DNA from: Acidobacteriota bacterium
GTDB lineage: Bacteria > Acidobacteriota > Blastocatellia > Pyrinomonadales > Pyrinomonadaceae
Reading direction: 5' to 3'
DNA length: 64,000 nucleotides
Assembly (NCBI GenBank): GCA_003222945.1
Contig: QHXM01000072.1
Location: 1 to 64,000, forward strand
In this document: positions 52,384 through 52,542 of the stretch, piece by piece
Layout of the letters: each line of letters begins with the position of its first letter
Position numbering within the stretch: the stretch's first letter is position 1
Made by a program: the position numbers and the translations under genes
Notes under the pieces: model-generated
Told to the model about the DNA's origin: nothing
Database searches by the model: none
Seen by the model: the letters and a program-made list of their open reading frames with translations, nothing else

Positions 52384-52542
52384 GTTTTCGGGGGAGCTTC
52401 GATAAAGATCGAAGCTGAGAGTCCTTTGATTTTGGATTTTGGATTGAAGAAGCGGACTTTCGTCTTTTGAATCAAAAATCTAAAATCCAAAATCGGGAGA
52501 CCCTTTGAACCTGATGCGGTTAGTACCGCCGAAGGGAGAAAC
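52384..52542 (+). ncRNA. TPP riboswitch (THI element)
   Basis: GGGGGAGC-P3 hairpin (GCTTCGAT AAAG ATCGAAGC, 52396-52415)-TGAGAG ... ACCCTTTGAACCTGATGCGGTTAGTACCGCCGAAGGGA, upstream of thiC. Confidence 0.93.
52428..52494. repeat. Heptamer-repeat inverted island 8, inside the riboswitch variable stem (P3a)
   Basis: GATTTTGGATTTTGGATT ... AATCAAAAATCTAAAATCCAAAATC. Confidence 0.85.

Follow-up and report, generated by a model that had tools for sequence, protein, structure and literature searches.

The P3a stem and its origin

The P3a stem of TPP riboswitches is optional and non-conserved, present in 552 sequences and absent from 355 (Barrick and Breaker 2007, PMC2258182). Riboswitches tolerate stem-loop insertions, and variable insertions are known to form stem-loops (PMC2258182); the remark in an earlier note on this DNA that optional P3a stems are known at this position agrees with that survey. 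The question raised by the present locus is where such a stem comes from. The window, i.e. the whole stretch of 64,000 nucleotides that was analysed, belongs to a 4.74 Mb Pyrinomonadaceae (Acidobacteriota) MAG (G000 in the family survey described below). It holds a TPP riboswitch whose P3a arm has, very probably, been replaced or extended by one of the inverted heptad hairpins that lie dispersed in this genome as a repeat family. Such an event would have recurred across the Pyrinomonadaceae, in a switch that otherwise most likely works as an ordinary terminating riboswitch.

The TPP riboswitch in the thiC leader

The four core motifs of the THI element, previously described as intact, were located exactly on the forward strand: GGGGGAGC (52390-52397), TGAGAG (52416-52421), ACCCTTTGAACCTGATGCGG (52500-52519) and GAAGGGAG (52531-52538). 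Together they delimit a core of 52390-52538. The covariance-model search proposed beforehand showed the element to be a genuine RF00059 (TPP) aptamer; cmscan of a 501-nt stretch returned a match at 52380-52554 (+ strand, flanks included) with 62.0 bits (E 7.4e-12, model positions 1-105), above the gathering threshold of 54.3 bits. The riboswitch was undetected by a scan of the whole window at default settings and filters, and a search of the genome for TPP gave a match shortened to 52430-52554 with 37.6 bits, both because of the 70-nt insert in the long P3a. Matches to mir-2574, mir-651 and Phe_leader within P3a were under their gathering scores and were rejected as products of the AT-rich hairpin.

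The riboswitch sits between an open reading frame at 51759-52319, which we take to be msrA, and thiC (phosphomethylpyrimidine synthase). The region homologous to other ThiC proteins extends from 52616 to 54391 (+), with identity of up to 88% to Pyrinomonadaceae ThiC, and the mechanical open reading frame starts at 52505. Folding of the leader revealed an intrinsic terminator with a 12-bp hairpin and a U run at 52551-52595 (+). This terminator and the thiC gene downstream are features of a thiamin-gene leader. Since the terminator loop TCCCTTTCG may pair with CGAAGGGA in the 3' strand of the aptamer as a putative antiterminator, transcription termination is the most likely mode of action of the switch.

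P3a is an inverted heptad island

P3a forms a stem-loop of 79 nt (52421-52499, +), compared with 11-25 nt in most relatives, with predicted pair probabilities of 0.997-0.999. The 5' arm, GATTTTGGATTTTGGATT (52428-52445, +), consists of two GATTTTG units and a terminal GATT. The 3' arm, AATCTAAAATCCAAAATC (52477-52494, +), is its reverse complement, reading AATC, TAAAATC and CAAAATC. The arms are 94% complementary, the helix has a probability above 0.99 in the predicted fold of the full leader, and the folding z is -4.2. The self-identity of P3a at lag 7 is 0.56 versus 0.26 after shuffling (highest value among 300 shuffles, 0.44). The inverted heptamer island that had been noticed between TGAGAG and ACCC is thus borne out by both the pairing and the periodicity. 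When the island centre, i.e. the loop (52446-52476, +), was aligned to the centres of the other islands, none was detectably related (best score 19, null maximum 22). The kinship of this copy with the dispersed family therefore lies in its arms.

Heptad islands are dispersed in non-coding gaps

A search of the genome with GATTTTGGATTTTGG, allowing at most one mismatch, gave 90 matches as against 0 for the reversed control. Altogether 27 GATTTTG-type islands were extracted, mostly 67-130 nt long and one of them with a single matched arm; the P3a island counts as a member of this set of about 27. None of the 26 checked fell inside an open frame; all were in non-coding gaps. From our own reading of the flanks, the sites include what are presumably the rpsN-rpsH and gap-pgk gaps. 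The centres of many dispersed copies are related to each other. Three islands at unlinked sites (L242, L248 and L259) share about 90% identity across 80-97 nt, loop and common arm variants included, while their flanks are unrelated; thus, whole elements have been copied elsewhere in this genome. Two others (L236 and L246) are nested, with one repeat family in the loop of another.

Heptads of many other kinds are also present. In a 308-kb sample of the same genome, 48 tandem runs of many different heptads were found at lag 7, as opposed to 2 at lag 8 and a single one after shuffling. Within the window, 10 hot spots were seen at lag 7 at a lenient threshold and 7 at a stricter one, compared with 4 at lag 6 and 0-1 at lags 8-11, so that the earlier count of about ten other sites was roughly right. 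These islands are built of other heptads, and the exact GATTTTG family, found elsewhere in the genome, has no further member in the window. The lag-7 scan located inverted islands of TTTTGAA/CAAAACT (29900-29998), AAGGCAA (36135-36244) and AATTAAG (41739-41865), and a tandem array of CAGAAGT (55938-55972). A second inverted island near the riboswitch, of the AAGGTAA/AAGGAAA type, lies at or just after the thiC stop codon (54390-54472, +) and has 23-nt arms that are 100% complementary.

Two further repeats were observed in the window. At 14759-15002, inverted and tandem repeats overlap in a cluster around CATTTACATGC and GTAAACGTC; they differ in kind from the heptads. A perfect 21-nt inverted repeat of the CACAGAG type, TAACCACAGAGTACACAGAGG, occurs at 43847-43962 with its arms 74 nt apart.

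Long and short P3a alternate among relatives

P3a was compared in 82 genomes of the family that have both the aptamer and ThiC. In most of them it is about 11-25 nt long and variable, with unrelated sequences. A long P3a (40-168 nt) is carried by 13 of the 82: G000; G003, G030 and G140 of g3; G010, G034, G121, G123 and G129 of g10; G015; G026; and G068 and G069 of g6. The best period is 7 in 11 of these and 8 in the other two (G015 and G026). Identity at lag 7 was above all 300 shuffles in 11 of the 13 carriers, G026 among them and G034 and G015 not, and the folding z ranged from -2 to -13. In G026 and G015 (L066 and L045), an octad hairpin is nested within heptad arms, which suggests that islands may insert into the loops of older ones.

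The heptad of each P3a was then matched to its own genome. It is widely dispersed in G026 (279 matches versus 1 in the control), G010 (85 versus 3), G034 (68 versus 1) and G140 (53 versus 1); G030, G003 and G015 gave 33, 18 and 38 matches (outer heptads only in G015) with 0-3 in reversed controls. At G068 the heptad TTCATCATTCATCA is scarce in the genome outside P3a, and its match to a dispersed family is only weak. Orthologous stems that were conserved in sequence and distinct from the dispersed repeats would have contradicted an insertion. No such stems were found: P3a is short and variable, or it matches the family of its own genome wherever this was tested (G000, G026, G010, G034, G140, G030, G003, the outer heptads of G015 and, weakly, G068).

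Leaders that lack the island, which the earlier note had advised looking for, were found in most relatives. Presence and absence mapped on the ThiC tree require at least 7 gains or losses, 4 of them forced by well-supported branches. Of two species of g26, G026 has a long P3a and G077 a short one; within g10, G119, G120, G125 and G127 have short stems alongside the long-P3a members of that genus. Long and short forms alternate without a ladder, G034 at 40 nt being the only intermediate size, and the basal pairs UC...GA are kept in both.

The density of heptad runs per 100 kb is 17 in this genome and 9 in G003, versus 2 and 0 in the short-P3a genomes G092 and G021. The outgroup G044, from another family of the class (L379-L381), has 28 runs per 100 kb and inverted islands of ATTTTGG, yet its P3a is short; abundance alone, therefore, does not predict insertion. 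A pattern search across the phylum for a P3a of about 36-96 nt retrieved only this genome among 396, a result that says little since the length limit excludes carriers of about 100 nt.

Heptads in RNase P RNA and at rpsN-rpsH

The phenomenon is broader than the earlier note stated, as heptads have also settled in helices of RNase P RNA and at intercistronic sites. In much of g9 the RNase P RNA measures about 360-400 nt, whereas many g3 and g10 genomes have one of 510-670 nt. The extra length consists of degenerate self-complementary heptads, RATYTSA, in peripheral helices (L321-L334; up to 671 nt). In G003, G010, G030, G034, G119, G137, G138 and G140 they number 9-18, as against about 1 after shuffling, and other g3 and g10 members with a long RNase P RNA have 3-7 copies; the z at lag 7 reaches 6.2. 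In G003 the alignment to RF00010 retains the core (253 bits), with inserts at about 6 places.

The gap between rpsN and rpsH was parsed in 31 genomes (L242, L271-L290, L341-L362). In 26 of them the spacer is 73-124 nt, with 7 as the best period in 25. In the other five (G126, G130, G132, G141 and G022) the gap is 20-31 nt and empty of any island. The heptad mostly differs from species to species, and does so even for G000 and G001, which belong to one genus; a degenerate version is common to one genus group (G002, G020, G025, G079 and relatives). At this site, the position of the hairpin is retained and its sequence is replaced.

How the long P3a arose

The observations would be explained as follows. 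Heptad hairpins may copy themselves, or get copied, into short non-coding gaps, and the P3a copy presumably came by the same route as the other islands. Within structured RNAs they would last only at sites that can accommodate a stem-loop; in the TPP aptamer, this site is the tip of P3a. Because each element is self-complementary, an insertion in a loop would yield a longer stem: the transcript would fold as a long helix on the existing base of P3a and leave the ligand core untouched. The riboswitch with the island is thus predicted to function still, most likely as an ordinary transcription-terminating switch 5' of thiC, and the effect of the island on switching would be near neutral. The process would be repeated across the Pyrinomonadaceae, always with heptads of a family that occurs in the genome concerned, as recurrent arrival and turnover of hairpins filtered by selection, the survivors being those in gaps and in tolerant stem tips.

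The other explanation that fares best, although a rather unlikely one, is growth in situ, in which slippage or hairpin template switching expanded a short P3a and produced matched heptads in both arms with no incoming copy. The unrelated centre of P3a, the lack of any target duplication found and the basal UC...GA pairs common to long and short stems are consistent with it. Against it, the heptads of the arms, the TAAAATC variant included, equal those of the dispersed family here and the same holds in other carriers, copies elsewhere share centre as well as arms, and a single middle size (G034) takes the place of a ladder of intermediates.

Selection for the hairpin itself, compatible with dispersal, is unlikely as the explanation. 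The long P3a or the rpsN-rpsH hairpin would then be functional, in RNase III processing, transcript stability, pausing or temperature sensing, and would be maintained while its sequence turns over. The retained position with changing heptads at rpsN-rpsH in 26 of the 31 parsed genomes and the strength of the P3a hairpins (z -2 to -13) point in this direction, but sister genomes do without the island both in P3a (G077, G119, G120, G125 and G127) and at rpsN-rpsH (the five empty gaps), and these heptads also fill unrelated gaps throughout the genome. Chance resemblance of an ordinary variable P3a to the repeats, for which the optional and non-conserved nature of this stem (PMC2258182) might speak, is hardly credible, being statistically refuted by the reversed-pattern control (90 matches versus 0) and the shuffles of lag-7 runs and of P3a. 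It is also at odds with the recurrence of this pattern in several genomes independently, with heptads of their own.

With regard to the preferred reading, insertion of a dispersed hairpin, target-site duplications were looked for at the islands and none was found; the mean shared flank was 1.62 versus 1.59 after re-pairing, and 98 of 200 null draws were as high. The proposal of a mobile or expanding repeat colonising a tolerated site is thus upheld by the near-identical dispersed copies, and not upheld as regards transposition. A Y1 (RAYT) transposase was rejected as the driver: Y1_Tnp numbered 3 in G000 and 13 in the heptad-poor G092, and G007 yielded none, although a heptad island occupies its rpsN-rpsH gap.

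A wider reading can be offered tentatively, at somewhat less than even confidence. A system of self-complementary heptad hairpins may be active in Pyrinomonadaceae. From species to species, one heptad family would take the place of another at a given site, perhaps through nesting in older loops, and the hairpins would recurrently become structural helices of essential RNAs (P3a and, in one RNase P RNA, about 6 places). The current repeat families of the genome would then provide the peripheral parts of such RNAs.

Relation to known repeats

As regards RF00059, the present element has all the core motifs, the place upstream of thiC and a P3a at the known optional site; it differs in that P3a belongs to a dispersed genomic repeat family, with other families in that position in relatives. 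The STRR repeats of cyanobacteria are dispersed and of heptad size, and Vioque is said to have reported them in 1997 inside the RNase P RNA of heterocystous cyanobacteria. The likeness lies in short tandem repeats within a structured RNA gene. Here too, tandem 7-nt units are dispersed in intergenic DNA (27 islands; 0 of 26 in open frames) and lie inside structured RNAs (P3a in 13 genomes; RNase P RNA in g3 and g10). The phylum, however, is another one, a riboswitch and several RNase P helices are involved, and the heptads differ between species.

The P6b stem of the Nostoc tRNA-Leu intron also holds heptad repeats in a structured RNA (PMC3488679). There, as here, heptads pair into a variable peripheral stem whose length varies with repeat copy number; it is an intron and not a riboswitch, and has two repeat classes as against many species-specific families. 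The directly repeated TAACTGA heptamers of Beggiatoaceae, cyanobacteria and Bacteroidetes (PMC4679880) are likewise abundant intergenic 7-nt tandem arrays, but of a single directly repeated heptad, often near start codons, whereas the islands described here are inverted and made of many heptads. Like REPINs and MITEs, the islands are short inverted-repeat elements, and many copies of them are dispersed in gaps outside genes. Terminal inverted repeats and near-identical dispersed copies, as expected of a MITE, are present; in contrast, no target-site duplication was found, no end sequence is common to the heptad families and no matching transposase was identified. In a partial literature search, neither a riboswitch derived from dispersed repeats nor the replacement of repeats at retained positions from one species to the next came to light.

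Dispersed repeats are thus a possible origin of non-conserved riboswitch stem-loops; they would survive insertion into a tolerated loop because they are self-complementary from the outset. In this way, parasitic-looking repeats may supply parts of RNAs that are predicted to work. One bacterial family, with its short and differently filled P3a stems, offers natural replicates for testing the role of the stem. The inserts also bring real TPP riboswitches under the Rfam threshold or shorten their matches in genome-scale scans. Since six island carriers (G000, G003, G030, G026, G015 and G010) scored only 31-38 bits for TPP in the family survey, TPP switches with a long P3a are probably under-annotated.

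Heptads and length variation in thiC

In genus g9, CAGAAGT and CAGTTGT heptads were observed just after the thiC start codon (L087, L096, L101, L102, L104, L105, L108, L112 and L114). As they follow the start codon so closely, the array is apparently translated, which would give the protein an N-terminal extension. At L118 (JAJPKD010000050.1, 2501-5062) the ThiC match is about 800 nt longer than in relatives, suggestive of an insertion or of a further, partial copy.
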